From Candidatus Abyssobacteria bacterium SURF_5 (lineage in GTDB: Bacteria > Abyssobacteria > SURF-5), in NCBI GenBank assembly GCA_003598085.1, contig QZKU01000052.1, positions 1 to 36,363 on the forward strand: 36,363 nt of DNA, in the 5' to 3' direction. The position numbers were made by a program, and so were the translations under genes. Within the stretch, counting starts at the first letter, position 1, and each line of letters starts with the position of its first letter. Positions 4,146-24,158 of the stretch are shown here, piece after piece. Under the pieces are notes generated by a model, which did not search any database, was not told the DNA's origin, and was given only the letters and a program-made list of their open reading frames with translations.

Positions 4146-5615
4146 TCAGGCGCCGGGGCGGGACATCTTTGAAAGAATTTCCGATCGGTGGCGCCTCCAC
4201 GAGCACAGCGGGATTGTCCGTACCGAATCGTTTTCCGGATCCAGGAAGCCGACGGCGACCGGACAGCGTTCCACGCACTGCGACTGGTGCTGAAAACGGT
4301 CCTGATACGGCAGCACAACCAGGCGAAAAATCGATTTCTTTCCGGTGATCTCTTCGAATATCCGCCGCCGTTTTTCCCTTGATCGGATATTCAGCACAAG
4401 GCGAAGCATCCCGAGATACTTTTTCAAGCCCTTCTCGGAGAACACCCTGTCCAGTTTCACATGCTTGCGAATCAGCGATCCATACCACAAGCTGATAAGA
4501 ATTTTCCCCCAAAAAGTCCGGGCAGACTCATCATCCTTCTTTTTCGGGTCGTCTGAATTATTGCGCGAAGCTTTCTTTTTCAGGTCCTCCGCCAACTCGT
4601 AAAAGGAGGTTTTCAGAAATTCGGATGCCGGCACATATCCGTTCTCTGTTGAGATGAGAAAAGCAATGCTCTCGCAACTCGGGCTTGCCCCCCGAAAAGC
4701 CGCGAACGGCCTCAGAAGTTCGCGAAACGGAACGGGAACATCCATAGAGCCGGCAGGCAAAAATTCTATCCCGCTGAACTTTTCAGCCACCAGATTTTCC
4801 ACGTCCTCCACGGTTAGGCGTTCTTCCTCGCGCCAAGCGAACTGCACCTCTCCGTTATCCCATGTCCGCGCCAAAGGAATCAGGTAAAGGGCGCCTACCA
4901 CTTTTCTCCTTTGCCGGCAGAATTCGATAATGTCCGTCAGGGCTTTGTCATTGATTCCCCTGGCAAGGGTGCAGAAAATCGAGATCGGCGTCTGGACATA
5001 CTTGCTGGTGTTGCCAAGCGCGGTCAGCTTCTTCTCGAGAAGGTCCTCGTTTCCTCGCAGCAACCGGTAGGTGCAGGAATCCATTCCGTCGAACTGGAAA
5101 TGGATTCCGGCTCCCGTGGATAAGAGCTGCCGACAATACTCCTCATCCGCAAGCCGGACGCCGTTGGTGCATACACAGACGTGGAGACCGTACTGGAAGC
5201 CGAGCGCAATAATAGCGGGCAAATCGTCGCGTGTCGTCGGCTCGCCGCCGAATAATTCAATGTGGGGCGGCGGCTTCCTCTGGGAAAGCGATCGGAACAA
5301 TCGATCAAAATACTCGAGAGGAGGATCGAACTTCGCGCTCTCCCTGCCCATGTTGGACATACAGGTGGGACAGCTCAGATTGCAGGTGTTCGTCACCTCG
5401 ACGACGACAACTCGCGGCTCCGAAGGCGGAAATGTGCCTTTACCGAATTCCTGCTTTTTCTGATAGCGCTCGATATCGGAGGAAAGCAACGTCTCGGTGA
5501 CTCCGCAACGCGCGCATTCTTTTCTGAGGTACATCTTTCCGTCGCGCGATTCATAGCTTGCGGGCACTACTTTATCGCAAATATTGCAATATCCGCTATT
5601 TACCTCATAATTCAT
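4146..5615 (-). CDS. radical SAM protein resembling tetraether lipid synthase (Tes/MJ0619-like)
   Basis: A 489-residue radical SAM enzyme. The N-terminus has paired cysteines C10/C13 and C34/C37, a rubredoxin- or zinc-like site. The radical SAM cluster motif is C78-x3-C82-x2-C85 within TNTCNLSCPTC. A later FDGMDSCTYRLLRG segment and a C-terminal group of cysteines (CVERCP and, 20 residues on, PLCSW) agree with the architecture of the archaeal Tes enzyme MJ0619. That enzyme has a rubredoxin-like iron site and auxiliary 4Fe-4S clusters and joins lipid tails to make membrane-spanning lipids. The gene stands alone on the minus strand, with no clear Shine-Dalgarno before the ATG. Nearby UbiA, DUF362 and GT-C genes fit a lipid/envelope role. 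Radical SAM is certain; the Tes-like assignment is an inference from layout, and other C-C-forming or methyl-transferring radical SAM enzymes are possible. Confidence 0.7.
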   Translation of the reverse strand: MNYEVNSGYCNICDKVVPASYESRDGKMYLRKECARCGVTETLLSSDIERYQKKQEFGKGTFPPSEPRVVVVEVTNTCNLSCPTCMSNMGRESAKFDPPLEYFDRLFRSLSQRKPPPHIELFGGEPTTRDDLPAIIALGFQYGLHVCVCTNGVRLADEEYCRQLLSTGAGIHFQFDGMDSCTYRLLRGNEDLLEKKLTALGNTSKYVQTPISIFCTLARGINDKALTDIIEFCRQRRKVVGALYLIPLARTWDNGEVQFAWREEERLTVEDVENLVAEKFSGIEFLPAGSMDVPVPFRELLRPFAAFRGASPSCESIAFLISTENGYVPASEFLKTSFYELAEDLKKKASRNNSDDPKKKDDESARTFWGKILISLWYGSLIRKHVKLDRVFSEKGLKKYLGMLRLVLNIRSREKRRRIFEEITGKKSIFRLVVLPYQDRFQHQSQCVERCPVAVGFLDPENDSVRTIPLCSWRRHRSEILSKMSRPGA

Positions 5616-6564: not shown

Positions 6565-7569
6565 TTAGAAATTCCGGCAGTGCTCGTCAAGCTCCTCAAA
6601 CGGGAAGAATTGTTCGTAATCAGCCAGAGCCGCCAGCGCACGCGAATGAGTCCGCATCCCCACTTCCTCAAGAATGGCGGCCGGATTGAGTCCGCCGATC
6701 ACAATTGCCCCCACCTGTCCCTGATTCACCGGAATCTCGAGCAGCGGCTGACCGGGCCATCCAATGGACATAAACCCACCCAACCCAACTTCCTCCAGTT
6801 GTTGGGCCAGATACACCACACGCTCCCTGCTTTCGGCGGGAACCTCCCTGAAACTGGCGCCGATGCGGCCATTGCCATTTTTCGTGGCGCCGAGATAATC
6901 GGTCATGCCGCTCCGGATGAAAACCTCCAGGGGATCGAGCGTTGTCCCATTGTAGTATATGACCTCGACGAAACGGCTGGGCTTATAATCATGTAATTCC
7001 AGTAACCCGCCGAATCGAGAATAAGTAGGGATCCCGTTCGATAGCAGTACTCCATTCAGTGTAACCGAGCACACTGTCCCGATCCCGACCATTCCCTCGG
7101 GAACAATCAGCTCGCCCACGCGCTGCTGCGGCGCAAAGAGCGTCACCAGGCGTCCCATCGCGTATCCGTGGCTGAAAACCCGCTTCACCAGCGGCGCAGC
7201 CTTTTTCAACTGCGACTGCTCAATGATGCTGGCATTCACAACCACAGTGCCGGAACGAGTCTTCAGGTCGAAGTTCATTCGGTACGTCATCTGATCTATT
7301 TTTGCAGCGAGAAATCCCACTCGTTCAATAATGCGGGCGCTGGAGATCTCCTCCATTCCCTTCTGCGTTATCAACCGGCCTCTTCGCCCCAGATTCTCGG
7401 TCAGCCCTTCCTCATCCATCGCTTGCAGATAAAACCGGACCGTTCGCTCGGTGATCTCATTGCCGGCGGCAATGAGCCGCTCCGTGATCCGGGAGCTGCC
7501 TACGGGCCGGCCGGCTTCCTGAAGAATGCGCAGAATTGCAAGCCGCTTCTTTTCGGTCTTTTCACTCAT
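6565..7569 (-). CDS. nrpR: NrpR-type transcriptional regulator (winged helix + NRD/DUF128 domain)
   Basis: A 334-residue protein. Residues 1-75 form a winged helix-turn-helix (KKRLAILRILQEAGRP, then a recognition region ITERTVRFYLQAM and a wing ENLGRRGRLIT). The rest is one NRD (DUF128) domain, e.g. LVTLFAPQQRVGELIVPEGM, GVLLSNGIPTYSRFGG and GGLNPAAILEE. In methanogens NrpR represses nitrogen-assimilation genes by binding GGAA-N6-TTCC-type dyads and is released by 2-oxoglutarate. This protein has a single NRD, and DNA-binding and sensing parts are on one chain. The start is ATG 7569 or ATG 7578; neither has a strong ribosome site. It is divergent from a glutamate-synthase-like gene whose promoter carries a matching dyad, so it probably controls that gene and perhaps the operon at 9956. 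Family call is firm; target set is inferred. Confidence 0.85.
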   Translation of the reverse strand: MSEKTEKKRLAILRILQEAGRPVGSSRITERLIAAGNEITERTVRFYLQAMDEEGLTENLGRRGRLITQKGMEEISSARIIERVGFLAAKIDQMTYRMNFDLKTRSGTVVVNASIIEQSQLKKAAPLVKRVFSHGYAMGRLVTLFAPQQRVGELIVPEGMVGIGTVCSVTLNGVLLSNGIPTYSRFGGLLELHDYKPSRFVEVIYYNGTTLDPLEVFIRSGMTDYLGATKNGNGRIGASFREVPAESRERVVYLAQQLEEVGLGGFMSIGWPGQPLLEIPVNQGQVGAIVIGGLNPAAILEEVGMRTHSRALAALADYEQFFPFEELDEHCRNF

Positions 7570-7832
7570 AATCCGCATTCTACCAGAAGTCCTGCCACAT
7601 TGCAAGCCGAAATTGGCAATTTTGCCGCAATTCACGTGGCAGCAGCTTGGCTTTTTCCGAGAACAGAGCGGGATTTCCTTTGGAATCTTGGAATTTTTTT
7701 TGCGATGAGCGCTCGCAGTATATTCGGGATTGCCGGAACGGAAATCTTTTTTGCCGGAACATAAGCGGCAAATTTGCCAACGAATAGAGTCCTTCTTTAC
7801 TAAAAAACCTGCCATTTCAGGGGAGATTCTCA
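7570..7832. other. regulatory intergenic region between nrpR and the glutamate-synthase-like gene
   Basis: No gene seen. It holds two perfect palindromes, GGCAATTTTGCC (7615-7626) and GGCAAATTTGCC (7767-7778), and a direct repeat TTGCCGGAAC at 7730-7739 and 7751-7760, 21 bp apart (two helical turns, so same face of DNA). A TATACT -10-like box for nrpR lies on the minus strand at 7717-7722, but no good -35 accompanies it. The arrangement looks like a multi-site control region, plausibly for NrpR autoregulation. Confidence 0.5.
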
Positions 7833-7861
7833 TTGACATTACATCTGGAGTGTGATATTAT
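7833..7861 (+). promoter_or_regulatory. near-consensus sigma70 promoter of the glutamate-synthase-like gene
   Basis: TTGACA (7833-7838) and TATTAT (7856-7861) are 17 bp apart: a perfect -35 and a 5/6 -10. Expected start of transcription is about 7868. This is the strongest promoter in the window by sequence, which suits a gene held by a repressor. Confidence 0.8.
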
Positions 7862-8015: not shown

Positions 8016-9599
8016 ATGAATCTACATCGTCCAAATGCCAATGAGGCGCTGCAGACGAGCAACCGCTCGCGGCATGTTTCACCTCAGTCCGGTATTTGCA
8101 GCCGCTGCATAGACGGTTGCAAGGGCGGGTGCGACCTTTTCACTTCCACTTTCCGGGGAAGAGAGCTGCTGTATCCCGGTCCCTTCGGGGAGGTAACCGC
8201 GGGCGCCGATAAAGATTACCCGGTCGATTATTCGCACCTGAACATCATGGGCTATGCCTTCGGGGCCGAGGGTACTCTGGGCGACTCCGACCACGCCACG
8301 TTTCCGACCGTCAATACGGAAACGCAATTCGGCACCACTCACAAGGTAAAGATGAAGGCCCCTATTTTCACCGGCGCGCTCGGCAGCACCGAGATCGCTC
8401 GCAAGAACTGGGAGCATTTTGCCGTGGGCGCGGCCATCAGCGGTATCAGCCTTGTTTGCGGTGAGAACGTCTGCGGCATTGATCCGAAGCTCGAGCTCGA
8501 TTCCCGCGGAAAGGTAAAGGAAGCGCCCGATATGCGCCGGCGGGTGGAAGCCTATCGGCGGTATCATGAGGGATACGGAGACATCCTCGTACAACTGAAT
8601 GTTGAAGATACGCGGTTCGGAGTAGCCGAATACGTGGTCGACAAGCTCGGCGTCGAGACCATCGAACTCAAGTGGGGCCAGGGCGCAAAATGCATCGGGG
8701 GCGAGATCAAAGTCGATTCGCTCGAGCGCGCCATCGAACTGAAGAAGCGCGGCTACATCGTAACGCCAGATCCCGAGAACCCGGCCAATCAGGCGGCCTT
8801 CAGGGACGGCGCCATCAAGCAGTTCGAGCGCCACTCGCGCCTCGGCTTCATCGACTACGACGGCTTCATGAAGGAAGTCGAACGGTTGCGCAAACTTGGC
8901 GCAAAACGGGTAACGCTGAAAACCGGGGCCTATCCGATGCGCGAGCTCGCCATGGCGATTCGCTGGTCGTCCGATGCCCGCATCGATCTGCTCACGATTG
9001 ACGGAGCGCCGGGCGGGACCGGCATGAGCCCGTGGCGCATGATGGCCGAATGGGGCGTGCCTTCAATCTACCTGCATTCGATGGCCTACAATCTGTGCTG
9101 CAAACTCAGGGACAAAGGAAAATTCGTGCCTGATATCGCCTTTGCCGGCGGATTCAGCGCCGAAGACCACGTCTTCAAAGCGATCGCCCTGGGCGCGCCT
9201 TTCACGAAGGCAGTCTGTATGGGCCGCGCGCTGATGATCCCCGGCATGGTCGGCAAAAATATCGCCGCCTGGCTCAATGGATCCAATGGAGAACTGCCCA
9301 AGACCGTATCGAAGTACGGGAAGACGAAAGAAGAGATCTTTGTCTGTTACGAAGAAATTAAGGCGAAGTACGGGGCCGAAGCCGATAAAATGCCGCTTGG
9401 CGCAATCGGAATTTATAGCACAACCGAAAAAATACGAGTGGGCCTGCAACAACTGATGGCGGGGGCGCGCAAGTGGAAGGTTGAGTTGATCAAGCGCCAG
9501 GATCTGGCCTCTCTCACCGAAGAATGCACCAGGGTAACAGGCATCCCCTATATCATGGACGCGTACCGGCAGGAGGCGATGGAGATTATCGACGCCTGA
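8016..9599 (+). CDS. glutamate-synthase-like FMN domain protein with an N-terminal Cys cluster
   Basis: A 527-residue protein with the glutamate synthase FMN/TIM-barrel domain from about residue 80 to 460. Recognisable family motifs are KWGQGAKCIGGEIK (FMN/phosphate region), IDGAPGGTGMSP and AGGFSAEDHVFKAIALGA. The N-terminus carries C28-x2-C31-x3-C35-x3-C39, a possible Fe-S or metal site, while the usual C-terminal Cys motif that binds the 3Fe-4S cluster is absent. It has no glutaminase domain. It may act as the FMN subunit of an amidotransferring or electron-transferring enzyme. N-methylglutamate synthase subunit MgsC belongs to the same superfamily and is an alternative. It is transcribed alone: own promoter and leader, and a terminator follows at 9646. 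Family sure, reaction uncertain. Confidence 0.75.
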   Translation: MNLHRPNANEALQTSNRSRHVSPQSGICSRCIDGCKGGCDLFTSTFRGRELLYPGPFGEVTAGADKDYPVDYSHLNIMGYAFGAEGTLGDSDHATFPTVNTETQFGTTHKVKMKAPIFTGALGSTEIARKNWEHFAVGAAISGISLVCGENVCGIDPKLELDSRGKVKEAPDMRRRVEAYRRYHEGYGDILVQLNVEDTRFGVAEYVVDKLGVETIELKWGQGAKCIGGEIKVDSLERAIELKKRGYIVTPDPENPANQAAFRDGAIKQFERHSRLGFIDYDGFMKEVERLRKLGAKRVTLKTGAYPMRELAMAIRWSSDARIDLLTIDGAPGGTGMSPWRMMAEWGVPSIYLHSMAYNLCCKLRDKGKFVPDIAFAGGFSAEDHVFKAIALGAPFTKAVCMGRALMIPGMVGKNIAAWLNGSNGELPKTVSKYGKTKEEIFVCYEEIKAKYGAEADKMPLGAIGIYSTTEKIRVGLQQLMAGARKWKVELIKRQDLASLTEECTRVTGIPYIMDAYRQEAMEIIDA

Positions 9600-9955: not shown

Positions 9956-10363
9956 GTGGATATCGTTATCTTTGCCTGCCAAAATCGCATTCCGCAAGAT
10001 TGGCGCCCTCCATTCACGCCAGATAGCATTAACGGGCAATACATCCGCCTGAGGCAACTCCCCTGTTCGGCAAAACTCACAACGCTTTCCATTATCCGCC
10101 TCTTTGAAAAACAGGCTGACGCCGTGCTTGTTCTCGCCTGTCCTGAAAACGGATGCCGCTCGCTCGAAGGCAGCCGCAGAGCGGCTGCTCGCGTGCGAGA
10201 AGCAAATGCCGTTCTTGAAGAGGTCGGCCTCGGAAATTGCCGGGTGATGATCAGGCAGAGCGGCGCCAACAATCGACAGGACCTCCTCGACGCACTGCAG
10301 GAATTAAGCGGCCGCGTGGAAAAGCTGGGGCCGAACCCGGCAAAAGGGAACAGGGTCAGATGA
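9956..10363 (+). CDS. MvhD/FlpD-like hydrogenase iron-sulfur subunit
   Basis: A 135-residue protein of the MvhD family: small 2Fe-2S proteins that pass electrons between an oxidoreductase and heterodisulfide-reductase-like or flavin modules. Cysteines C8, C37, C62 and C67 lie in the family pattern (FACQN, LPCSAK, VLACPENGC); the second Cys of the usual N-terminal pair is replaced. The GTG start has AAGGAAGG just upstream. It overlaps metV by four bases (ATGA), the tightest coupling in the operon. MvhD next to MetV/MetF is known from acetogens, where it is thought to feed methylene-THF reductase from bifurcating complexes. Electron partner here is inferred. Confidence 0.75.
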   Translation: MDIVIFACQNRIPQDWRPPFTPDSINGQYIRLRQLPCSAKLTTLSIIRLFEKQADAVLVLACPENGCRSLEGSRRAAARVREANAVLEEVGLGNCRVMIRQSGANNRQDLLDALQELSGRVEKLGPNPAKGNRVR

Positions 10364-11040
10364 TAATAGCCGAACGTAAACCGATCGAAGAAATCCTTTC
10401 AATAATTGGCGACGTCGATTCCGTGCTGATTGCGGGCTGCGCCACATGCGTAGCCGACTGCATGGCGGGCGGCGAGCGGGAAGTCGGCATCCTCGCTTCC
10501 GCGCTCCGGATTGCGGCCGCACAGAGAGGCAAACAACTTGAAGTCCTCGAGGTGACCGTGGAACGCCAATGCGAGCGGGAATTCATTGAAAAGGCGCGGG
10601 AAAAAGTGGACAGAGTCACCCTCGTGCTTTCGACTGCCTGCGGCGTCGGCGTCCAGGCGATGGCCGAGCGTTTCCCGAACAAACCGATTTGTCCCGGCGT
10701 CAACACAAAATTCCTCGGCCTCCGCGAGGCTGAAGGAGTGTGGAGCGAGCGCTGCGCCGCATGCGGAGACTGCACGCTGCATCTGACCGGCGGCATTTGT
10801 CCGGTCGCCCGTTGTTCCAAGAGCCTGCTGAATGGGCCATGCGGCGGCTCCAAAGGCGGGAAATGCGAGGTTTCCGAGGACGTCGATTGCGGATGGCATC
10901 TTATTGTCGAGCGCCTGACGGCTCTTGGGCAACTTGACCGGCTCGAAGTTAACATTCCCCCGAAGAATTGGGCCGCCTCTCGCGACGGCGGACCGCGGAA
11001 AGTCGTCAAGAAGGAATACAGAGATGAAGAGCGGGAGTAA
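10360..11040 (+). CDS. metV: methylene-THF reductase Fe-S/Zn subunit MetV
   Basis: A 226-residue protein matching MetV, the partner of MetF in acetogen-type methylene-tetrahydrofolate reductase. N-terminal cysteines C27, C30 and C34 (GCATCVADC) and a Cys-rich C-terminal segment (CAACGDC, GICPVARC, NGPCGG, GKCEVSEDVDC) fit the MTHFR C-terminal zinc/Fe-S family. The start is the ATG at 10360, overlapping the mvhD-like stop; an earlier in-frame ATG at 10237 lies deep inside that gene and is rejected. Its 3' end overlaps metF by 17 bp. It acts in the cytoplasm in the methyl branch of C1 metabolism, passing electrons to MetF. High confidence for family. Confidence 0.85.
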   Translation: MIIAERKPIEEILSIIGDVDSVLIAGCATCVADCMAGGEREVGILASALRIAAAQRGKQLEVLEVTVERQCEREFIEKAREKVDRVTLVLSTACGVGVQAMAERFPNKPICPGVNTKFLGLREAEGVWSERCAACGDCTLHLTGGICPVARCSKSLLNGPCGGSKGGKCEVSEDVDCGWHLIVERLTALGQLDRLEVNIPPKNWAASRDGGPRKVVKKEYRDEERE

Positions 11041-11959
11041 CCTTGAAAAAGTTTTGGCAGCCGGCCACTTCGCGGTAACGGCTGAACTGGGGCCGCCCAT
11101 GGGCTGCAACATGGAGCCGGTTCGCAAAAAGATCGAGTTGCTGCGCGGGACAGCCGACGCGTATAACGTCACCGATTGCCAAACCGCGGTCGTCCGCATG
11201 AGCAGCATTGCGACGTCGATCCTGCTCGTGCGGGAGGGTCTCGAGCCGGTCATGCAGATGACTTGTCGCGACCGCAACCGGATCGCGATCCAGAGCGATA
11301 TCCTCGGCGCGGCCGGTCATGGAATCCACAACTGCCTGTGTATCGCAGGGGACCACCAGTCGTTCGGGGCCGCCGGAAAACTCAAAGGCCATCCCGGCGC
11401 CAAAAACGTATATGATGTGGATTCGATCCAACTTGTTGGAATACTCAAACAGCTTCGCGACGATTCCCGCCAGCAGGGAGGCGACGCTCTTGACGGACCT
11501 GTTCCGCTGTTCATCGGCGCCGCCTGGACGCCGCTCGGCGATCCGATCCAGATTCGCACTACCCGACTGGCAAAAAAGATTCGAGCGGGTGCAGACTTTA
11601 TTCAAACGCAAGCGGTCTACGACATCGAGCAATTTGCGGAGGCAATGCGCAAGGCGCGCGACAAAGGTCTTCACGAGCGTGCCGCCATTCTGGCGGGCAT
11701 CATTGTTCCTAAAAGCGCCGCCATGCTTACGTACATGAACAAATCGGTGCCCGGCGTGATCGTTCCCCAACATCTGATCGACCGGATGCAGGCGGCCGCC
11801 GACCGGCGGGCCGAAGGCATACGAATCGCCACAGAACTGATCGAACAAGTGCGCCGGATCGAAGGCGTGCGCGGAGTGCACATCCAGGCAATTGAATGGG
11901 AAGCCGCTGTGAGGGATGTCGTTGGAGGCGCGGGACTGCTGCCCAGGCCGGTCGTCTGA
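11024..11959 (+). CDS. metF: methylenetetrahydrofolate reductase MetF
   Basis: A 311-residue TIM-barrel flavoprotein that reduces 5,10-methylene-THF to 5-methyl-THF. The N-terminal VTAELGPPMGC holds the conserved catalytic glutamate. The segment YNVTDCQTAVVRMSS and later GIHNCLCIAGDH and VDSIQLVGILK match the family. The start at ATG 11024 overlaps metV. Upstream extension to 10925 would read through metV and is not needed. With MetV and the MvhD-like protein it forms an acetogen-style reductase that probably does not use NADH directly. The operon then continues into glutamate-synthase-like genes, which is unusual. Confidence 0.9.
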   Translation: MKSGSNLEKVLAAGHFAVTAELGPPMGCNMEPVRKKIELLRGTADAYNVTDCQTAVVRMSSIATSILLVREGLEPVMQMTCRDRNRIAIQSDILGAAGHGIHNCLCIAGDHQSFGAAGKLKGHPGAKNVYDVDSIQLVGILKQLRDDSRQQGGDALDGPVPLFIGAAWTPLGDPIQIRTTRLAKKIRAGADFIQTQAVYDIEQFAEAMRKARDKGLHERAAILAGIIVPKSAAMLTYMNKSVPGVIVPQHLIDRMQAAADRRAEGIRIATELIEQVRRIEGVRGVHIQAIEWEAAVRDVVGGAGLLPRPVV

Positions 11960-11971
11960 GAGGGAAAAGGA

Positions 11972-13378
11972 ATGCCGAAGAAGTATCACATAAGCGCGCA
12001 AGCGGCCCCGCCGAGATTCATTCCCGTTCCCAAGTACGCGATGGTGGAACGGGAAGGCTGTCTCGGCTGCCTCGAGTGCGCCAAGCGTGATTGCGTCTAT
12101 GAGGTCTATAAGAACCGCCGGTTCGATCCGGAACAGATTACAGACTCCATCGACTCTTTGTGCAAGAACTGCCTGCGCTGTATTCAGAGCTGCAAGAACC
12201 AGATCATCAGCAAGATGAAGAATCCGGATTTTTACGCTCTGGGGGATTCCCATTGGAAACCGGACCAGATCGCCAGCCTCTGGGAACAAGCCACTACCGG
12301 GAAAATCCCTGTCTCGGGCGCCGGCTATCGTGGGCCTTTCAGCGGACCAGGCTTCGATTCCATGTGGACGGACATGTCGGAAATCGTGCGCCCGACACGG
12401 GACGGCATCCACGGGCGCGAATACATCAACACCTGCGTCGACATCGGCAGGAAGGTTTCCCGCCTGGTTTTCGATGAGGGCAAACATTTGGTGTCGGAGA
12501 CGCCGCCACTCGTCGAGTTGCCCACCCCCTTCATTTTCGACCTGCTTCCTTTCGGCATAATGAATGAGAGCGTGCGCGAGGCGTATCTGCGCGCCGCCGA
12601 AACGGTGCAGACAATGCTGGTAGTGCCGGAGAGCGCGCTGGACTGGAAACTTGTTCCGCGACTTGAGAACATCATTCCCCTGCTCGATCCCTGCGGAATA
12701 ATTTCGGAAAAAACCAAAGAGCTTATCGTCCGCTCTCGAATGATCGAGTTTGAAGATGCGGCCGACGCGCCGGCTCGCATGGAATCGATCAAGAAATTGA
12801 ATCCCGCGGCGGTTGTCGCGATCAGGATGCCGCTTAACAGACGAACAAGCCCGCGGATCGAGGAACTTACCCGCGCCGGCGTCGAAGCGATCCACGTCGT
12901 TGCGGACTGGCAGGGAAACGAGCCCGGCGAACAGCGTCCCCGCTTCCTGAAAGAGGTGCTGCGAGAGATCCACCTGAATCTGATCGACAAGGCGTTGCGC
13001 GATGAGGTAACCATTATCGCCTCCGGCGGGATTGGAATGGCCGAACACGTGGCAAAGGCGATCATCTGCGGCGCCGATGTCGTCGGCATCGACCTGGTGT
13101 TGCAGGTCGCACTCGAGTGCCGGGTGTGCAAACGATGCACCCGCGGCCTGAGCTGCCCCGTCTCGATCGATGCAATCGAGCCGGAATGGGCGGCGCTGCG
13201 CGTGAGGAATCTGATGTGTTCGTGGCACTCCCAGCTCATTGAGGTCCTCGGAGCCATGGGGTTGCGGGAGATACGGCGGCTGCGCGGAGAGGTGGGCCGT
13301 GCCATGTTTTTCGAGGATTTGGAGAAGGAGGCTTTCGGCGATGTCAGACTCGCCACAGACGCTCGCAGCTCAGGATAA
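11972..13378 (+). CDS. degenerate glutamate-synthase-like Fe-S protein
   Basis: A 468-residue protein with two 4Fe-4S motifs at the N-terminus (C30, C33, C36, C41 and C64-x2-C67-x2-C70-x3-C74). A TIM-barrel-like region follows and ends in a glutamate-synthase-type tail: ASGGIGMAEHVAKAIICGAD, then C383-x2-C386-x2-C389-x5-C395. The usual FMN and 2-oxoglutarate motifs (QGAKPGxGG and GGTG) are missing; VVADWQGNE stands where the glycine-rich loop would be. It looks like a diverged paralogue of the next gene that keeps the Fe-S sites. A role as electron-transfer partner or structural subunit is inferred. Start ATG has AAAAGGA upstream; 12 bp after metF; its end overlaps the next gene by 38 bp, implying coupled translation. 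Confidence 0.7.
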   Translation: MPKKYHISAQAAPPRFIPVPKYAMVEREGCLGCLECAKRDCVYEVYKNRRFDPEQITDSIDSLCKNCLRCIQSCKNQIISKMKNPDFYALGDSHWKPDQIASLWEQATTGKIPVSGAGYRGPFSGPGFDSMWTDMSEIVRPTRDGIHGREYINTCVDIGRKVSRLVFDEGKHLVSETPPLVELPTPFIFDLLPFGIMNESVREAYLRAAETVQTMLVVPESALDWKLVPRLENIIPLLDPCGIISEKTKELIVRSRMIEFEDAADAPARMESIKKLNPAAVVAIRMPLNRRTSPRIEELTRAGVEAIHVVADWQGNEPGEQRPRFLKEVLREIHLNLIDKALRDEVTIIASGGIGMAEHVAKAIICGADVVGIDLVLQVALECRVCKRCTRGLSCPVSIDAIEPEWAALRVRNLMCSWHSQLIEVLGAMGLREIRRLRGEVGRAMFFEDLEKEAFGDVRLATDARSSG

Positions 13379-14849
13379 AATTTCGCAAACGGGCTGCCGC
13401 GAGCCAAAACATGTGCCCTCGCGATTCCGTAATCGCGTTGCGAAGTATAAAGTGTTTCGAAGCGCCGCGTGCGTTGCGTGCGGCAAATGCGCCGAGCTGT
13501 GTCCATACGGAGTGCATGTGCAAAGCGGCGACCGCATGCTCAGGCCGCGCGAATGGCTGTGCATCGGATTCGAGTGTCAGAAGAACAGTTTTTACTGCAT
13601 CGATCAATGTCCACAACAGGCGCTTTCAATGGGAATCAATCCGCTGTTCGAGGTGATCGGTGATGCGCGCTGGCCCGCCGATATGATCCTGGCGACGTGG
13701 GCGATGGCCGAGACCGGCGATGTCCCCCCAGGCGGTTTAGAATATCAGTTCGGACTCTCCGGCGGCGGCTTCGACCGGCTCGCCTTCGATTTTGCAGACG
13801 GAAGGGATAACGGCATCAGCGAGGACGACATCGATCTCGGCATCGAATTGAACCGGCGCGGCGGCGACGCTCATCCCGTCCATATCGATATTCCGATATA
13901 CGGCGGCGGCATGTCGTTCGGCTCGATCAGCGAGAACACCATGATCGGACGCGCCATGGCGGCCAAAGAGTGGAACACCTTCACGTGCACCGGCGAAGGC
14001 GGATACCCGGAGTCGCTCGTGCCTTTCTCCAACCACATTATCACTCAGGTGGCGACGGGACTATTCGGAGTACGCGAGGAGACTATCCAGCGATCGAAGA
14101 TCATCGAATTCAAATATGCGCAGGGGGCAAAGCCCGGCCTCGGCGGCCATCTTCTCGGCGATAAAGTGACTCCGCAGGTGGCGCAAATGCGCGAGGCGGT
14201 GGCCGGAAATTCACTGTTCTCGCCGTTCCCGTTCCACTCCGTTTATTCGGTTGAAGACCACAAGAAGCACGTGGATTGGATCAAGGCGATCAGTCCGCGC
14301 TCGCTCATATCGGTGAAGGTATCGACGCCGACCGACGTCGATATGGTAGCGATGGGCAGCTACTATGCCGACGCGCACATTCTGCACATCGACGGCAGTT
14401 ACGGCGGCACGGGAGCCGCACCGGATATCGCGAAGAAGAACATCGCAATGCCGATCGAGTACGCCATTCCGAAGGTCCACAAGTTCTTGGTTGCCGAAGG
14501 CGTGCGCGAGCGGGTGGCGCTGATCGCATCCGGCGGCATTCGCAACCCGTGGGACGTCGCCAAATCGATTGCGCTCGGCGCCGACGGAGTCGTCGTGGGA
14601 ACGGCGGAAATGATCGCGCTGGAGTGCATTCGCTGCGCCAATTGCGAGAGCGGCCGCGGGTGCGCCCGCGGGATAGCCACTACTGATCCCGAGCTTGTCC
14701 GACTCGTTTCCATCGAGTACGCGAGCCGGCGCCTGAGCAACTTGTATCTGGCCTGGGCAAGAGAGCTAAAAAGAATCCTCAAACGGCTGGGAATGCGCAG
14801 CGTCAAGGAACTCGTCGGACGAACCGATGTCCTTGTGCGCTTTCCATAA
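13341..14849 (+). CDS. gltB: glutamate synthase FMN/Fe-S subunit (archaeal GltB type)
   Basis: A 502-residue protein. The N-terminus has ferredoxin-like cysteines C44, C47, C50, C54 and further C74, C79, C86, C90. The FMN domain is complete: YAQGAKPGLGGHLLGDKV, HIDGSYGGTGAAPDI and ASGGIRNPWDVAKSIALGAD. It ends with the CIRCANCESGRGC cluster motif of the 3Fe-4S site. It catalyses reductive transfer of ammonia to 2-oxoglutarate, making glutamate. The ATG at 13341 with GGAGAAGGAG upstream is preferred over 13239, which lies inside the preceding gene. No GltD-type NADPH subunit is present here, so the electron donor may be ferredoxin or a neighbour in the operon. Confident call. Confidence 0.85.
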   Translation: MSDSPQTLAAQDKISQTGCREPKHVPSRFRNRVAKYKVFRSAACVACGKCAELCPYGVHVQSGDRMLRPREWLCIGFECQKNSFYCIDQCPQQALSMGINPLFEVIGDARWPADMILATWAMAETGDVPPGGLEYQFGLSGGGFDRLAFDFADGRDNGISEDDIDLGIELNRRGGDAHPVHIDIPIYGGGMSFGSISENTMIGRAMAAKEWNTFTCTGEGGYPESLVPFSNHIITQVATGLFGVREETIQRSKIIEFKYAQGAKPGLGGHLLGDKVTPQVAQMREAVAGNSLFSPFPFHSVYSVEDHKKHVDWIKAISPRSLISVKVSTPTDVDMVAMGSYYADAHILHIDGSYGGTGAAPDIAKKNIAMPIEYAIPKVHKFLVAEGVRERVALIASGGIRNPWDVAKSIALGADGVVVGTAEMIALECIRCANCESGRGCARGIATTDPELVRLVSIEYASRRLSNLYLAWARELKRILKRLGMRSVKELVGRTDVLVRFP

Positions 14850-14864
14850 GAGAACCAACAGACC

Positions 14865-17477
14865 ATGGACATGAAAAGCGAATTCATCATTCGGTCGCGA
14901 GAGCCTCTGCTGCAAGCGGCGCCCGCCTGCGCGCCGCGCAAGGAAGCGGAAGAAGGCGGCTGCGGGGTCGTCGGCTTCGCCTGCAGCATACCGGTCGGCG
15001 GAAAACATATTTACGAGCCGTCCTGCCAGATGCATAACCGCGGCAACGGCAAAGGCGGCGGCATCGCCGCCGTCGGCTTTGTGCCCGAACAGCTTGGCAT
15101 AACGCGCGACGTCCTTGATTCACATTACATCCTTCAGATAGGACTGCTGAATATGGACGCGCGAAAAACGGTCGAAGAGGAATTCATTTTGCCTCATTTC
15201 GACGTGGCGCAGATGAGCATGCTGCCGACGGTGGACAACTACCGCGACATCGAAGGCCTCGAGGTCCGCCCTCCCGACGTGCTGCGCTGCATCGCACGCG
15301 TTAAGCCCGCCGTTCTCGATGGGTACATCCGCGACCACTCGCTCGACTCGTTGAGTCGCACTGAGGCCGAAGACGAATTTGTTTATCAGAATAGTTTCAG
15401 GTTGAATCAGAACCTGTACGCTTCGCTGGGCGAGAAGAAGGCGTTTGTCCTCTCGCACGGCCGCAACATGATGATCCTCAAAATTGTGGGCTATGCCGAG
15501 AAACTGGCGCAATACTATTTGCTGGAGGACTTCAAGGCCCACTGCTGGATCGCGCACCAGCGGTATCCGACCAAGGGGCGCGTCTGGCATCCAGGCGGAG
15601 CGCATCCGTTCATGGGAATGCATGAGGCGCTCGTGCATAATGGCGATTTCGCCAATTATGTTTCAGTCTGCGAATACTTGAAAATGCGAAACGTGTATCC
15701 CCTGTTTTTGACGGACACCGAGGTCTCAATCCAGCTGTTCGACCTCTGGAAACGCGTCTACCGGTATCCGCTCGAGTACGTCATCGAAGCGATGGCGCCG
15801 ACGACCGAACTTGATTTCAATCGCTTGCCCGCCGAAAAACAGCGCATCTATCGACAGGTACAAGCTTGTCACATGCATGGCTCTCCTGACGGCCCGTGGT
15901 TCTTCATCATCGGGCGCAACGACGTCGAGAACAATCGATTTCAACTGATCGGCATCACCGATACGTCCATGTTGCGACCGCAGGTTTTCGCCTTCACGTT
16001 GGGCGAAGTCTCGATCGGGTTGTGCTGCTCGGAAAAACAGGCAATCGACGCGACGCTTCACTCGCTCGCGCAGGAGGACCCTCGATTCCATCCGATTGCC
16101 GACAAATACTGGAACGCGCGCGGCGGTAGTCACACCGACGGAGGCGCATTCATTTTCACGGTTTCCGGCGCGGGCGAGAACAAGAAAATGACGTGCGCGA
16201 ACAAGTTCGGCATCGAGGTGACGCTGTCCCCCGAAAAGAAGCATCGCGACCGGGCCGAGGCAGTCACGGCCCCGAAAACGCAAGACGCGCTTTCGCGCCG
16301 TATCCGGACGTTCCTGAAGCGGGAAGACGCCGACGGGCTGTTTGCATGGATAAGCGACAGCGTCGCGCGCTGGCGATACAATACGCTTGCATGGGTTCTT
16401 CAGGAGTCGGCAGAGATAGCCGAACAAGGAGACAGGGAACGCGCGGTCATCATTGCCGCCTTGACGCTGCTGAACGATCGCCGGTACGCGACAGGGAAGA
16501 AGAAGCGCAGCTCTGTTCTCGAATTGGTGCGCCTTTCGCTGCATTCGATTTTCCGAAGCTGTCCCGCCATCGAATCGGCTCAATCTTCGCGGTACCGGTT
16601 GATAGGGTGGGAGAATCGCCACCAACTGCGAGCGCCAGTCGAGAGCGAACAGATACTGGTGATCGATGCAGCCGGTTTTGCGCCGGAAGGCCCTGATTGC
16701 CATTCGCACCTGCTGATCGCGGGTTTCCGATTGGGGTGGCGCCGCTTTATCGCCTACAACTTCAGAGGCGAGCGGTTCTCCGGCTGCGGGTTCGGACCGG
16801 AAACGCAAGGCGTCATTATCGACCTGTACGACAGCACGGGCGATTATGTTGCCTCGGGCATTGACGGAATGGAGATATACATCCACGGCGACGGCCAGGA
16901 CCAGCTTGCTCAAATTATCAAGCAGGGAAAACTGGTTGTTTATGGAGACGTCGGCCAGACCTTCATGTATGGTGCGAAGGGCGGCAGTATCTACGTCATG
17001 GGGAATGCGGCGGGGCGGCCCCTGATCAATGCCGTCGGCAGGCCCCGCGTGGTTGTAAACGGCACCTGTTTGGATTATTTGGCTGAATCTTTCATGGCCG
17101 GCGACGCACTCAACGGCGGCGGTTTCGTCGTTCTGAATGCAGTTGAATTCGATGAAGAGGGCTCCCTTCGCGATCTTCCTTTTCCCTATCCCGGCTCCAA
17201 TCTTTTCTCACTTGCGTCGGGCGGCGCTATCTATGTTCGCGACCCGCACCGGCTCGTTGCGGACGAGCAGCTTAACGGCGGCGAATTCGCTCCCATGACG
17301 GCGGCCGATTGGCAGCTCATCCTGCCGCACCTCCAGGAGAACGAACGGCTTTTCGGCATTTCCGTTATGAACCACTTGCTGACGGTCAACGGCAAGAGGA
17401 TGGCGCCGGAGGACGTTTATCGAAAGGTTCGACCGGTGAAACTCGCGGTTCTGGCGAAAGTTGCTGAACATGAATAA
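14865..17477 (+). CDS. glutamate synthase glutaminase domain fused to the GXGXG domain
   Basis: An 870-residue protein. After a 32-residue propeptide-like leader (ending EAEEGG), C33 starts a class II glutamine amidotransferase domain (CGVVGFACS; residues 33 to about 430). This domain cuts glutamine to glutamate and ammonia. A helical linker of about 150 residues follows, then the beta-helical GXGXG domain (about 600-860; e.g. GCGFGPETQG, GIDGMEIYIHGDG, GAKGGSIYVMGNAAGRPL). In bacterial GltB these two domains flank the FMN domain in one chain, and in archaea they are separate proteins; here they are fused without the FMN part, which is supplied by the gene just upstream. The enzyme would be rebuilt from two chains. 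Last gene of the operon. Confidence 0.85.
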   Translation: MDMKSEFIIRSREPLLQAAPACAPRKEAEEGGCGVVGFACSIPVGGKHIYEPSCQMHNRGNGKGGGIAAVGFVPEQLGITRDVLDSHYILQIGLLNMDARKTVEEEFILPHFDVAQMSMLPTVDNYRDIEGLEVRPPDVLRCIARVKPAVLDGYIRDHSLDSLSRTEAEDEFVYQNSFRLNQNLYASLGEKKAFVLSHGRNMMILKIVGYAEKLAQYYLLEDFKAHCWIAHQRYPTKGRVWHPGGAHPFMGMHEALVHNGDFANYVSVCEYLKMRNVYPLFLTDTEVSIQLFDLWKRVYRYPLEYVIEAMAPTTELDFNRLPAEKQRIYRQVQACHMHGSPDGPWFFIIGRNDVENNRFQLIGITDTSMLRPQVFAFTLGEVSIGLCCSEKQAIDATLHSLAQEDPRFHPIADKYWNARGGSHTDGGAFIFTVSGAGENKKMTCANKFGIEVTLSPEKKHRDRAEAVTAPKTQDALSRRIRTFLKREDADGLFAWISDSVARWRYNTLAWVLQESAEIAEQGDRERAVIIAALTLLNDRRYATGKKKRSSVLELVRLSLHSIFRSCPAIESAQSSRYRLIGWENRHQLRAPVESEQILVIDAAGFAPEGPDCHSHLLIAGFRLGWRRFIAYNFRGERFSGCGFGPETQGVIIDLYDSTGDYVASGIDGMEIYIHGDGQDQLAQIIKQGKLVVYGDVGQTFMYGAKGGSIYVMGNAAGRPLINAVGRPRVVVNGTCLDYLAESFMAGDALNGGGFVVLNAVEFDEEGSLRDLPFPYPGSNLFSLASGGAIYVRDPHRLVADEQLNGGEFAPMTAADWQLILPHLQENERLFGISVMNHLLTVNGKRMAPEDVYRKVRPVKLAVLAKVAEHE

Positions 17478-17696: not shown

Positions 17697-18413
17697 ATGA
17701 ATGAACGATTGAAACCATCGCCGGCTGAAAACGCGCCCGGCGGGCGCGCGTGTGAAATCATTGATCTTGCCGTCTGCTCCTACGCCAAGGCGTATGCCTT
17801 CCAAAAGGAAAAGGTTCGATCGAAGATTGACGGGGCCGATTCGGACACACTGATTCTGGTCGAACATTTCCCCGTGCTTACGCTCGGACGCCGGGGCCGC
17901 CGCGAGCATATCTGTGCTCCAACGCACCATCTAAGGTCGATGGGAATCGATGTGATCGATACGGATCGCGGCGGCGATGTCACTTATCACGGCCCCGGCC
18001 AACTTGTCGGATATCCGATCCTGGACCTGCGCGTCCATCGCCAGGATGTTAATTGGATATTGCGCTCGATAGAGGCCTCGCTCATTCGCGCCCTGGAGAA
18101 ATTCGGGATTCGAGCGGGGGTTGAACCCGGCCTCACCGGCGTCTGGGTAAATGGGGGAAAAATAGCGGCTATCGGAATCGGCATCAGCCGCTGGATCACA
18201 TTTCACGGATTCGCGCTTAATGTCGCTCCAAAGATGGATCACTTCCAATTGATTATCCCCTGTGGCATCCGAAACAGGGAGGTTATCAGCATGGAAGAAG
18301 CGCTCGGGAAAGCGCCGCCCATGGAGGAGGTCAAAAGAGCGGTAATCGAGGGTTTCTGCGCAACATTTGGACTCACTCCTTCAAAGCTTGATTTTCCGAG
18401 TCCGAAAAGTTAA
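17697..18413 (+). CDS. lipB: octanoyl-[acyl-carrier-protein]:protein N-octanoyltransferase
   Basis: A 238-residue enzyme that moves octanoyl groups from acyl carrier protein to the lipoyl domains of target proteins, the first step of lipoate synthesis. The signature RGGDVTYHGPGQ (91-102), the catalytic lysine K155 in VNGGKIAAIGIGISRW and the catalytic cysteine C189 in IIPCG are all present. Length is normal apart from a short N-terminal extension of about 15 residues. No lipA lies in the window. It precedes the pilT pair by 38 bp and may share their transcript. High confidence. Confidence 0.95.
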   Translation: MNERLKPSPAENAPGGRACEIIDLAVCSYAKAYAFQKEKVRSKIDGADSDTLILVEHFPVLTLGRRGRREHICAPTHHLRSMGIDVIDTDRGGDVTYHGPGQLVGYPILDLRVHRQDVNWILRSIEASLIRALEKFGIRAGVEPGLTGVWVNGGKIAAIGIGISRWITFHGFALNVAPKMDHFQLIIPCGIRNREVISMEEALGKAPPMEEVKRAVIEGFCATFGLTPSKLDFPSPKS

Positions 18414-21378: not shown

Positions 21379-23388
21379 TTACAACATTCGACCGACCCGA
21401 GCGCCTTCAATAATCGCGTCTATGCCTTTCGCCGGAGCGAGCGCATCGCCGATCACGTGAATCTCAGGCGCCGCTTCCCTCCATCTTTCGGCAAGCTTGG
21501 AATCCGCTTCGTATCCCGCCGCCAGTATTATGGTGTCGGCTTCGAGTAATTCGGTGCGGCCATCGAGCTGAATAAGGAGCCCCTTGTCGTTCAATTCGAG
21601 ATAATGCGCGCCGGTGATCGTTCTGACGCCGAGCTTTTTGAGCTCCTGCAGGATGACCCAGCGGGTGCTCCTGCCGAGCGTCTCACCGACGGCCGAGCCG
21701 CGCCTCACCAGCGTTACCTGCCGACTTCCCCGGCGAGCCAATTCAACTGCTTCGCCAGGAGGAACCACCCCGTGCTCGGCGAGAAAAACTGCCGCCTCAG
21801 GCGATATCGCACCCTTACGCGCCGCGTAAATTCCCACTTCGCAGGCGACTCCGCCGGCGCCGATAATGACAACGTTTTGGCCGAGCGGCACGCGCCCCGC
21901 CAGCACGTCTTCGGCCGCCGCGACTTTTGTGCTGTCAATGCCGGAAATGTCCGGAACGCGAGTACGCGCTCCACTTGCGAGCACGACCGCATCCGGTGTT
22001 TGGGCCTTTGCCAGTGAGGGAGTCATTTCCGTCTCAAGAATAATCTCGACTCCTGCGCGTTCCGCCGCCCCGGCAAGATATTGGATCGTTTTGCGGAGGT
22101 CCTCGCGCCCGGGCGGAATCGAGCCGTAGACGAGCCGCCCGCCGAGCCAGCCCGTTTTCTCGTACAACGTCACCCGGTGGCCCCGTTCGGCGAGGACGCG
22201 CGCGGCCTCCAAACCGCCCGGACCGCCGCCGACAACGAGTATCTTCTTCGGACGCTCGGCGCCTGTGATCGAGAATTCTTCTTCATTTCCCCGCACTGGG
22301 TTATTCATGCACGTGCTCGGCTGGCCGGTGAAGATTCTGTCGAGGCATCCTTCATTACAGCCGGTGCACGGAATAATCTCATCAAATCTGCCCTCGCGCG
22401 CCTTCTTCGAAAAATGGGGGTCCGCGTTCAGCGCGCGCGCCATTGCGATAAAATCGGCGTCGCCGTCCTCCAAAATCGATTCCGCCAGCGCCGGATCGGT
22501 TATCCGATTGCAGGTCATGACAGGAACGGCGACAGAGGACCTGATCTTTCGGGCGAGGAAGGTGAAGGCGCCGTGCGGAACGGATGCCGCCACCGTCGGA
22601 GTACGTGATTCGTGCCAGCCGATCTGGATGCTGACGGCGTCCGCGCCGGCTCTCTCAAATAACCGGGCGATCTCGATCGATTCCATGATCGAGTTGCCGC
22701 CTTCCATCAGCTCCGTGCCGCTGTGACGCATGATCACCGGATAGTCCGCGCCGCACCCCTGCTTTATCGCCTGGATTACTTCAATTCCAAACCGGGCGCG
22801 GTTTTGAAGCGAGCCGCCGTAGCTGTCTCGCCGCTGATTTGATAAAGGAGAAAGAAACTGACTGATGAGGTAGCCCGTTGATCCGATAATTTCGACGGCG
22901 TCGAATCCGGCCGCGCGCGCTCGAATGGCGGCCGCAACGAAAGCCTCCTCTATCTCGCGTATCTCAGGAATTGAAAGCTCGCGCGGCGTCTCGCGCGTTA
23001 AGCGGGAGGGGATAGCCGAGGAAGATACCGGCTGTTCGCCGTCGATCGTAAAGGAGAAGGCATAGCGGCCTGCGTGGAACAGTTGAGCCGCCGTCTTTGC
23101 GCCATGAAAGTGAAGGCGCTCATTCAGCGCGGCCATCGCAGGAATATATTTGTCGTCGTCGATGCTGAGGAATCCCATTCCGCCGCCGCCGAGCCGGTGC
23201 ACCTTGAAGCCGCCGCAAACGATCAAACCGGTTTCGCCTCGGGCGCATTCCTCGTAATAGCGGATCATGCGCTCCGTGACATAGCCATCCTCAGCATAGC
23301 CGAGATGCATGGCCGCCATCACGATGCGGTTACGCACCGTCATTGAGCCGATGGAGCCTTCGCGAAATAGAAATTTCAAGGCGCTCAT
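21379..23388 (-). CDS. 2,4-dienoyl-CoA reductase-like FAD/FMN/4Fe-4S oxidoreductase (FadH family)
   Basis: A 669-residue enzyme with an N-terminal old-yellow-enzyme FMN barrel (1 to about 335), a 4Fe-4S site C341-x2-C344-x3-C348-x11-C360, and a C-terminal FAD/NAD(P)H part with GGGPGGLEAA and GAGGVACEVG nucleotide loops. The EIIGSTGYLISQFLSPLSN stretch is typical of FadH-type members. The family reduces alpha,beta-unsaturated acyl-CoAs, enoates or related compounds. ATG 23388 lies 5 bp after the stop of the upstream dehydrogenase gene; an earlier ATG at 23445 would overlap that gene and is not chosen. With the dehydrogenase it suggests breakdown of an acyl-CoA or alicyclic substrate. Exact substrate unknown. 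Confidence 0.85.
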   Translation of the reverse strand: MSALKFLFREGSIGSMTVRNRIVMAAMHLGYAEDGYVTERMIRYYEECARGETGLIVCGGFKVHRLGGGGMGFLSIDDDKYIPAMAALNERLHFHGAKTAAQLFHAGRYAFSFTIDGEQPVSSSAIPSRLTRETPRELSIPEIREIEEAFVAAAIRARAAGFDAVEIIGSTGYLISQFLSPLSNQRRDSYGGSLQNRARFGIEVIQAIKQGCGADYPVIMRHSGTELMEGGNSIMESIEIARLFERAGADAVSIQIGWHESRTPTVAASVPHGAFTFLARKIRSSVAVPVMTCNRITDPALAESILEDGDADFIAMARALNADPHFSKKAREGRFDEIIPCTGCNEGCLDRIFTGQPSTCMNNPVRGNEEEFSITGAERPKKILVVGGGPGGLEAARVLAERGHRVTLYEKTGWLGGRLVYGSIPPGREDLRKTIQYLAGAAERAGVEIILETEMTPSLAKAQTPDAVVLASGARTRVPDISGIDSTKVAAAEDVLAGRVPLGQNVVIIGAGGVACEVGIYAARKGAISPEAAVFLAEHGVVPPGEAVELARRGSRQVTLVRRGSAVGETLGRSTRWVILQELKKLGVRTITGAHYLELNDKGLLIQLDGRTELLEADTIILAAGYEADSKLAERWREAAPEIHVIGDALAPAKGIDAIIEGARVGRML

Positions 23389-23393
23389 ATCAT

Positions 23394-24158
23394 TCAGGCG
23401 GTTGCATAACCGCCGTTGACACTGATGGCCTGGCCGGTTATCCATGAGGCGCGGTCGGAAGCGAGGAACACCGCCAGATGCGCGATGTCTCGAGGGTCGC
23501 CGAGCCGCCGCATGGGGTATGCCTTCACCACCTTCTTCTCAAATTCCTCCGAAAGCATCTGCTGAACGGCCTCGGTCTTGGTCATACTGGGGCAGATTGC
23601 ATTCACATTGATTCCGTAACGGCCGACCTCTTTGGCGATCGACTTGGTGAAGGAGACGATGGCGCCCTTGGCGCCCGCGTAAACCGCCTGTCTCGGCTCG
23701 CCTACTTTGGCGGCATCGGAGGCCATGTTGATGATCTTGCCGTATCCGGCTTCGATCATGCTTTCGATGACTGCCGCCGTGCAGTTGATGGCGCCGTGAT
23801 AACAGACATCAACCACCTGCGACCAGACCTGCCGATCGCTATTCTTCTCCTCAACAAAAGAAAGAAACTGGGGCAGCTTTGCGGCATTATTCACCAGAAT
23901 CTGAACCGGCCCGAGCTCTTTGACCACAGCTTTGACCATCGCGTCCACGCTTGCCGGATCGGTGACATCGGTTGCGACGGCAAATGACTTAACCCCTATG
24001 CTTTTCAATGACGCAGCAGCCTGGGCCGCGCTGCTCTGGTCGATTTCCGCGATCGCGATGTGCGCGCCTTCCTCCGCCAGTTCGCGGGCAATCGCCAGTC
24101 CGATGCCGCGGCCGCCGCCCGTCACTACGGCAACCTTCCCTTTCAACTGCAGGTCCAT
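23394..24158 (-). CDS. short-chain dehydrogenase/reductase (SDR)
   Basis: A 254-residue classical SDR. The NAD(P) loop TGGGRGIG is at 13-20, NNAA at 90-93, and the catalytic residues are S147, Y160 and K164 (YAGAK). The C-terminal ASWITGQAISVNGGY is typical of the FabG/BadH-like group, which oxidises or reduces beta-hydroxyacyl thioesters. It lies 31 bp downstream of the adenosyltransferase and 5 bp upstream of the FadH-like gene, on the same strand, so all three may be one operon. Family certain, substrate not. Confidence 0.85.
   Translation of the reverse strand: MDLQLKGKVAVVTGGGRGIGLAIARELAEEGAHIAIAEIDQSSAAQAAASLKSIGVKSFAVATDVTDPASVDAMVKAVVKELGPVQILVNNAAKLPQFLSFVEEKNSDRQVWSQVVDVCYHGAINCTAAVIESMIEAGYGKIINMASDAAKVGEPRQAVYAGAKGAIVSFTKSIAKEVGRYGINVNAICPSMTKTEAVQQMLSEEFEKKVVKAYPMRRLGDPRDIAHLAVFLASDRASWITGQAISVNGGYATA

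Follow-up and report, generated by a model that had tools for sequence, protein, structure and literature searches.

A probable glutamate synthase encoded without its NADPH subunit, in one run of genes with a methylene-tetrahydrofolate (methylene-THF) reductase, raises the question of where its electrons come from. Six such genes lie in a stretch of 36,363 nucleotides from Candidatus Abyssobacteria bacterium SURF_5 (contig QZKU01000052.1, positions 1 to 36,363), which we analysed whole and call the window. Nitrogen enters biomass mainly through glutamate synthase, an enzyme with few known electron donors: NAD(P)H (by way of GltD), ferredoxin and, putatively, F420. On balance, we favour the view that the products of the six genes make up a single redox enzyme system, a class of glutamate synthase in which an MvhD-MetV-MetF module replaces the GltD/NADPH subunit.

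The six-gene operon

The annotation of the window is based on the list of open reading frames and on Pfam matches. The operon comprises:

9956..10363, + strand: P2, MvhD/FlpD-like protein, four-cysteine variant (D1), one predicted [2Fe-2S] cluster; FlpD, 69.9 bits
10360..11040, + strand: P3, MetV, Fe-S subunit of methylene-THF reductase; DUF5981, 123.5 bits
11024..11959, + strand: P4, MetF, flavoprotein subunit, of the type I MetF clade; MTHFR, 118.7 bits
11972..13378, + strand: P5 (B1), degenerate glutamate-synthase barrel with no 2-oxoglutarate site; Glu_synthase, 52 bits
13341..14849, + strand: P6 (B2), predicted catalytic flavin mononucleotide (FMN) subunit of glutamate synthase, with an N-terminal Fe-S domain; Glu_synthase, 314 bits
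14865..17477, + strand: P7, class-II glutaminase fused to a GXGXG beta-helix domain; GATase_6, 28.4 bits, and GXGXG (PF01493), 43 bits

The order and tight spacing of the six genes, described in an earlier note made from the letters of the window, are borne out. MvhD and MetV overlap by 4 bp (ATGA), MetV and MetF by 17 bp, and P5 and P6 by 38 bp; the gaps are 12 bp between MetF and P5 and 15 bp between P6 and P7. Pfam likewise confirms that the operon has no GltD gene, and finds no hdrCBA in it; the gene set of a type IV methylene-THF reductase is thus not present there.

Distribution of the gene set

GTDB species genomes were scanned with P7, and the best 80 of 151 confirmed relatives were mapped. 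The 80 loci are spread over roughly a dozen phyla: Hydrogenedentota/Abyssobacteria, Poribacteria, Thermodesulfobacteriota, Myxococcota, Chloroflexota, Planctomycetota, Verrucomicrobiota, Actinomycetota, Spirochaetota, Armatimonadota, Fibrobacterota, ANME-1 and others. The search for co-location across genomes that the earlier note had proposed thus shows that the set is not unique to SURF_5.

Co-location was counted in the 50 homologous loci whose sequence extends 4.9 kb or more upstream of P7; related loci among them do not count as independent cases. Of the 50, 44 have MvhD, 29 MetV, 48 P5, 47 P6, 21 HdrA and 18 a GltD domain. MetF is found in 38 (39 counting L062), a lower bound that depends on BLAST cut-offs, and the chance expectation for MetF at these loci is about 1%, so chance gene order is rejected.

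Three layouts recur. Type I, that of the window, is mvhD-metV-metF-P5-P6-P7, in which P5 is often fused to P6. Type II is mvhD-metF-P5-P6-P7-hdrC-hdrB-hdrA::gltD-mvhD-metV, where HdrA has about 1500 residues and an internal GltD domain (Fer4_20 + Pyr_redox_2). Type III is mvhD-P5-P6-P7, with no metVF. The gene set is kept in permuted orders at L082, L090 and L096. Several loci are neighboured by genes for an ammonium transporter (Amt), PII, glutamine synthetase (GlnA) and NrpR-like regulators; NrpR-like genes adjoin the operon in L049, L062, L085, L097 and L098. The type III operon of L029 (2628-6567) is preceded by genes for GMP synthase, CTP synthase and NAD synthase, which are users of glutamine or ammonia. 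Two ANME-1 loci, L038 and L040, hold P5-P6-P7 with no MvhD detected and with an FAD-linked oxidase upstream, another possible electron donor; in L040 the oxidase is confirmed by Pfam and carries a 2x[4Fe-4S] domain.

P5, P6 and P7 as a probable divided synthase subunit

Alignment of P6 to solved glutamate synthases (GltS) finds the GEGG Glu, the YS-ED Glu, GGTGA and the cluster cysteines all kept, together with both Lys and the Gln of KxAQGAKPG (K-x-AQGAKPG-x-GG) and the Arg that follows. Kept residues align to Synechocystis K966, K972 and R992, which we take to have their roles in the GltS active site; the position of Gln978 holds His, as in archaeal GltB2. Homologues of P6 form one clade (100/100) that excludes both archaeal GltB2 and classical GltB, and the branch from this clade to known GltB is very long.

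In P7, C33, R59, R233, H258, N259, G260, D261 and D284 are invariant in 83 of 83 homologues. Cys33 is the glutaminase nucleophile (class-II/Ntn, CGxxG), and the Arg, the NG oxyanion pair and the Asp are present. The GATase_6 match of P7 is barely above the cut-off of 27 bits; GltB1-like similarity was also found.

P5 aligns as a homologue of the barrel minus a substrate segment of about 44 residues and the GEGG motif. Its 12 invariant cysteines, seen in 41 sequences, form three cluster motifs, two N-terminal [4Fe-4S] and one C-terminal. The AlphaFold2 model of P5 (predicted local distance difference test, pLDDT, 82.7; predicted template modelling score, pTM, 0.83) has glutamate synthase as its best PDB match, a fold common to many FMN barrels. 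The central domain of GltB (PF04898, Glu_syn_central) has no match in P5, and in P6 it reaches 22.3 bits against a cut-off of 22.8, overlapping the FMN domain. P5 was considered as a stand-in for this central domain and rejected, since its profile aligns with the FMN domain of GltB (hhalign) and the likeness is only positional.

P5 and P6 are fused in 16 loci, which suggests that they act together. AlphaFold2 modelled a natural P5.P6 fusion poorly (pLDDT 59.7, pTM 0.51), so that the interface is unreadable; the PDB matches of the model confirm only GltB-likeness. Taken together, P5, P6 and P7 resemble a single alpha subunit of glutamate synthase divided over three proteins.

The MvhD-MetV-MetF module

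MvhD linked to GltS has four invariant cysteines in 50 of 50 sequences, that of the window included, whereas MvhD linked to HdrA has six, including CCxxC; the six-cysteine form compared comes from the same operons. The two forms are mostly separate in a tree built on few alignment columns. Judged by these cysteines, the window MvhD is a distinct, dedicated four-cysteine form. In MetV, thirteen cysteine columns are conserved in type I, type II and Wood-Ljungdahl pathway (WLP) sequences, with a single type I sequence deviating at one column.

The MetF of the window keeps the equivalents of Glu28, Asp120 and Gln183, as do all 17 type I MetFs, and should work as a reductase. The equivalent of Asp120, which anchors folate, is also present in 31 of 32 other MetFs (the lone exception, L122, is a weak distant hit) and is present in none of the 26 MetFs of the HdrA-bearing type II relatives (e.g., L049, L073, L090). 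In E. coli methylene-THF reductase, the Asp120Asn change leaves 0.01% of the wild-type kcat/Km for methylene-THF (PMC11094777). As this Asp is lost in 26 of 26 while the MetV cysteines are kept, type II MetF may be an electron-transfer flavoprotein only. In seven of the 26 Asp-less proteins the anchoring Gln is replaced by His.

The earlier note suggested that one-carbon and nitrogen flux could be linked in one complex. The catalytic residues kept in the window MetF agree with such a link, and the type II proteins warn against a simple coupling of carbon and nitrogen; we regard the link to one-carbon flux through MetF as uncertain.

MetFs linked to GltS are not one clade: a tree constrained to make them so is worse by 120 in log-likelihood, and at least four label changes are needed. 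This indicates that MetF was recruited to synthase operons more than once. Type I and type II MetFs belong to different lineages, and those of L058 and L044 group among Wood-Ljungdahl MetFs, with weak support there. A natural fusion, GltD-2x[4Fe-4S]-MvhD (L157, 1543-3636, on contig C49 of genome G041), adjoins MetV and a MetF of the type I clade, so the GltD, 2[4Fe-4S] and MvhD modules are covalently joined in nature.

The source genome (G000) also has a complete Wood-Ljungdahl operon on contig C67, FTHFS-HdrC-HdrB-HdrA-MvhD-FolD-MetV-MetF-CODH-ACS. The acetogenic function of MetVF is thereby covered, and the MetVF of the window is an extra copy. The MvhD gene of the WLP operon has an in-frame TGA at a conserved Cys in SURF_5 and in two relatives of the same family, G001 and G002 (L154, 6688-7251; L155, 6622-7155; L156, 7007-7507), and probably encodes a selenocysteine MvhD in all three.

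Other routes to glutamate

G000, G001, G002 and G041 have no strong GltB domain besides that of the operon itself. In seven of 26 further genomes (those of L033, L035, L037, L038, L049, L066 and L082), no GltB of the classical or archaeal kind is present, and no strong glutamate dehydrogenase either. As G041 also lacks a strong glutamate dehydrogenase, eight genomes have no other evident route to glutamate, a count limited by the incompleteness of metagenome-assembled genomes, by binning errors and by completeness values that are not stated for most of them. This count and the nitrogen-related neighbours of several loci speak for glutamate synthesis by the operon without proving it. About nine of the 26 genomes also have a classical or archaeal-type GltB.

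G000 has GltD-like domains at other places as well. One of them stands alone, on contig C17; its gene overlaps one that is NfnA-like, and the simplest reading is NfnB. The possibility that a separate gltD pairs with the synthase, which the earlier note named as a possible refutation, is weakened by this location.

Proposed electron flow

In the system we favour, glutamine would be hydrolysed on P7, with its glutaminase and GXGXG domains, and the ammonia would add to 2-oxoglutarate on P6, where the resulting imine would be reduced by FMN. P5 would be a non-catalytic Fe-S barrel of the synthase. Electrons would be exchanged between the FMN and MetVF by way of the Fe-S clusters of P6 and P5 and the four-cysteine MvhD. 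MetVF may be the donor, either by oxidation of methyl-THF or with ferredoxin electrons entering MetVF, or may share a common electron supply with the synthase.

The 2-oxoglutarate/glutamate couple has a potential near -120 mV, and with this value electron transfer from methyl-THF to glutamate formation is estimated to be favourable by about 15 kJ/mol. The methylene/methyl-THF potential is about -200 mV, and MetVF lacks a conserved site for NADH (PMC8760232). In GltS with 2-oxoglutarate, the cluster lies at -190 mV and the FMN at -270 mV (PMC8097209). Since these potentials match, two-way exchange through MvhD and the P5/P6 clusters is feasible, with glutamate as the sink. A bolder version, which we regard as unlikely, has methyl-THF oxidation paying for glutamate in one complex, with no NAD(P)H and no strict need for ferredoxin; in type II the wire would run through HdrABC-GltD, and glutamate formation would be the exergonic branch of a bifurcation.

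The earlier note proposed electron exchange between MvhD/MetV and the GltB-like proteins. Comparative genomics, the repeated recruitment of MetF and the dedicated MvhD argue for a lasting functional link between them; the physical complex, and the route and direction of the electrons, we infer. Several observations weigh against the proposal. MvhD-P5-P6-P7 occurs without MetVF in L029, L033, L035, L066, L068 and L081, so the synthase does not need MetVF in every case, and the ANME-1 loci are without MvhD as well. P6 uniformly has FHS where other GltS have the HHD motif, which leaves the substrate of P6 not proven. G000 has one divergent Glu/Leu/Phe/Val dehydrogenase, far under the cut-offs for glutamate dehydrogenase, and its C17 GltD-like protein could serve the synthase in trans.

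Alternative explanations

The alternative that survives best agrees with our proposal in wiring, of which it is a sub-case, and rivals it in function. MetVF would be only a flavin and Fe-S relay that carries electrons to GltB from ferredoxin or NAD(P)H, and its one-carbon chemistry would be incidental, surviving in type I but not in type II. The contrast in Asp120 between type II and nearly all other MetFs, the severe effect of the E. coli substitution (PMC11094777) and the thirteen intact cysteine columns of type II MetV all point this way. All the catalytic residues are nonetheless kept in the window MetF, suggesting selection for methylene-THF chemistry, and a conserved NADH site is not known in MetVF (PMC8760232). 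We take this reading seriously, while holding it short of probable.

Flavin-based bifurcation, raised by the earlier note, would make MvhD-MetVF-GltB a bifurcating complex whose HdrABC and GltD-like parts would be supplied in cis in relatives but in trans in this genome. Type II operons do hold hdrC-hdrB-hdrA::gltD-mvhD-metV together with metF-P5-P6-P7; HdrABC-MvhD-MetVF of Moorella is a proposed bifurcating methylene-THF reductase (PMC8760232, PMC9012536), and an HdrA with an NfnB-like insertion is already known in ANME-1 (PMC9012536). In the window, however, the six products include no bifurcating flavoprotein (HdrA, Nfn or Etf), the HdrABC of G000 that matches MetVF belongs to the WLP operon, which has an MvhD-MetVF of its own, and the CCxxC of HdrA-linked MvhD is not present in the window MvhD. 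Bifurcation is thus unsupported for the window and plausible only for type II, the layout in which many relatives add HdrBC and HdrA-GltD; as an account of this locus we consider it improbable.

Less probable again is a co-regulated nitrogen and amino-acid operon with no electron link, in which glutamate and methyl-THF for methionine would be made side by side. Methyl-THF feeds methionine synthesis, and nitrogen-regulator and ammonium genes lie near several loci. Yet the most constant neighbour outside the synthase is MvhD, an electron-transfer protein that is retained where MetVF is absent. The missing folate-anchoring Asp of type II is a poor fit with making methyl-THF, MetF was recruited more than once, and six of 26 genomes (G063, G068, G070, G079, G080, G082) have a separate strong canonical MetF.

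The weakest alternative, that P5-P6-P7 carries out another glutamine-dependent reductive amination, draws on the uniform FHS near the synthase site, the very long branch to known GltB and the genomes that already have a classical or archaeal-type GltB, but the remaining aligned active-site residues are kept and no other way from ammonia to glutamate is evident in eight genomes, so that we think it very unlikely.

Relation to known systems

The operon shares with bacterial NADPH-GltS (GltBD; 1ea0, 6s6s, 7mfm) the glutaminase, the FMN domain, GXGXG, the cluster cysteines and the active-site residues of P6. It differs in being split over three genes, in its extra 2x[4Fe-4S] domains, in having the degenerate Fe-S barrel P5 beside P6 instead of a clear PF04898 central domain, and in having MvhD-MetVF instead of GltD. 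The archaeal-type split GltS (GltB1/GltB2/GltB3) is alike in its split genes, its FMN subunit with N-terminal 2x[4Fe-4S] and its four C-terminal cysteines. The operon is set apart from it by the fusion of glutaminase and GXGXG in P7, the second barrel P5, the separate P6 clade and the MvhD/MetVF partners.

Adjacent MvhD, MetV and MetF are shared with the type IV methylene-THF reductase of Moorella thermoacetica, HdrCBA-MvhD-MetVF, to which type II loci come closer with HdrCBA. The window operon has GltS subunits in place of Hdr, its MvhD is the four-cysteine form, and SURF_5 has a true type IV operon separately. The putative F420-dependent GltS of ANME (FrhB10 cluster) likewise combines GltS with an unusual electron-input protein; there the partner is FrhB (F420), not MvhD-MetVF, and MetF is not mentioned with the cluster (PMC9012536). 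An open-access literature search returned no paper joining MetVF with GltB, and glutamate did not come up in a text search of the Abyssubacteria paper. The new element would be the class of glutamate synthase with a new redox module; HdrABC-MvhD-MetVF and HdrA-NfnB fusions are already known.

A fourth electron arrangement for glutamate synthase in many uncultured anaerobic phyla would change how nitrogen assimilation is read from deep-subsurface and sediment metagenomes, and bears on what MetVF-type methylene-THF reductases use as their electron partner in the cell. A common supply of electrons may serve both nitrogen and one-carbon chemistry in many uncultured anaerobes. If glutamate formation is indeed a redox sink for Hdr-type complexes, nitrogen assimilation would be joined to energy conservation.

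Genes around the operon

Upstream of the operon, an NrpR-like regulator (HTH_12 + NRD1_2, 268.6 bits; 6565-7839, - strand), here in a bacterial host, is divergent to P1. P1 itself (8016-9599, + strand, 527 aa), between NrpR and mvhD, is a third FMN protein of the Glu_synthase type, of a different kind. It was dropped as part of the operon system, the P1-like match of G001 and G002 being on a separate contig. Directly 3' of P7 is lipB (17697-18413, + strand). A glycine/lipoate link through this gene was dropped, as BLAST places LipB beside the operon, among the loci seen, only in the three genomes of the SURF_5 family. Farther out, the window encodes a radical SAM protein with an HMPTM N-terminal zinc ribbon (4146-5615, - strand) and an old-yellow-enzyme/BaiCD-like Fe-S flavoenzyme of 688 aa (21379-23445, - strand).

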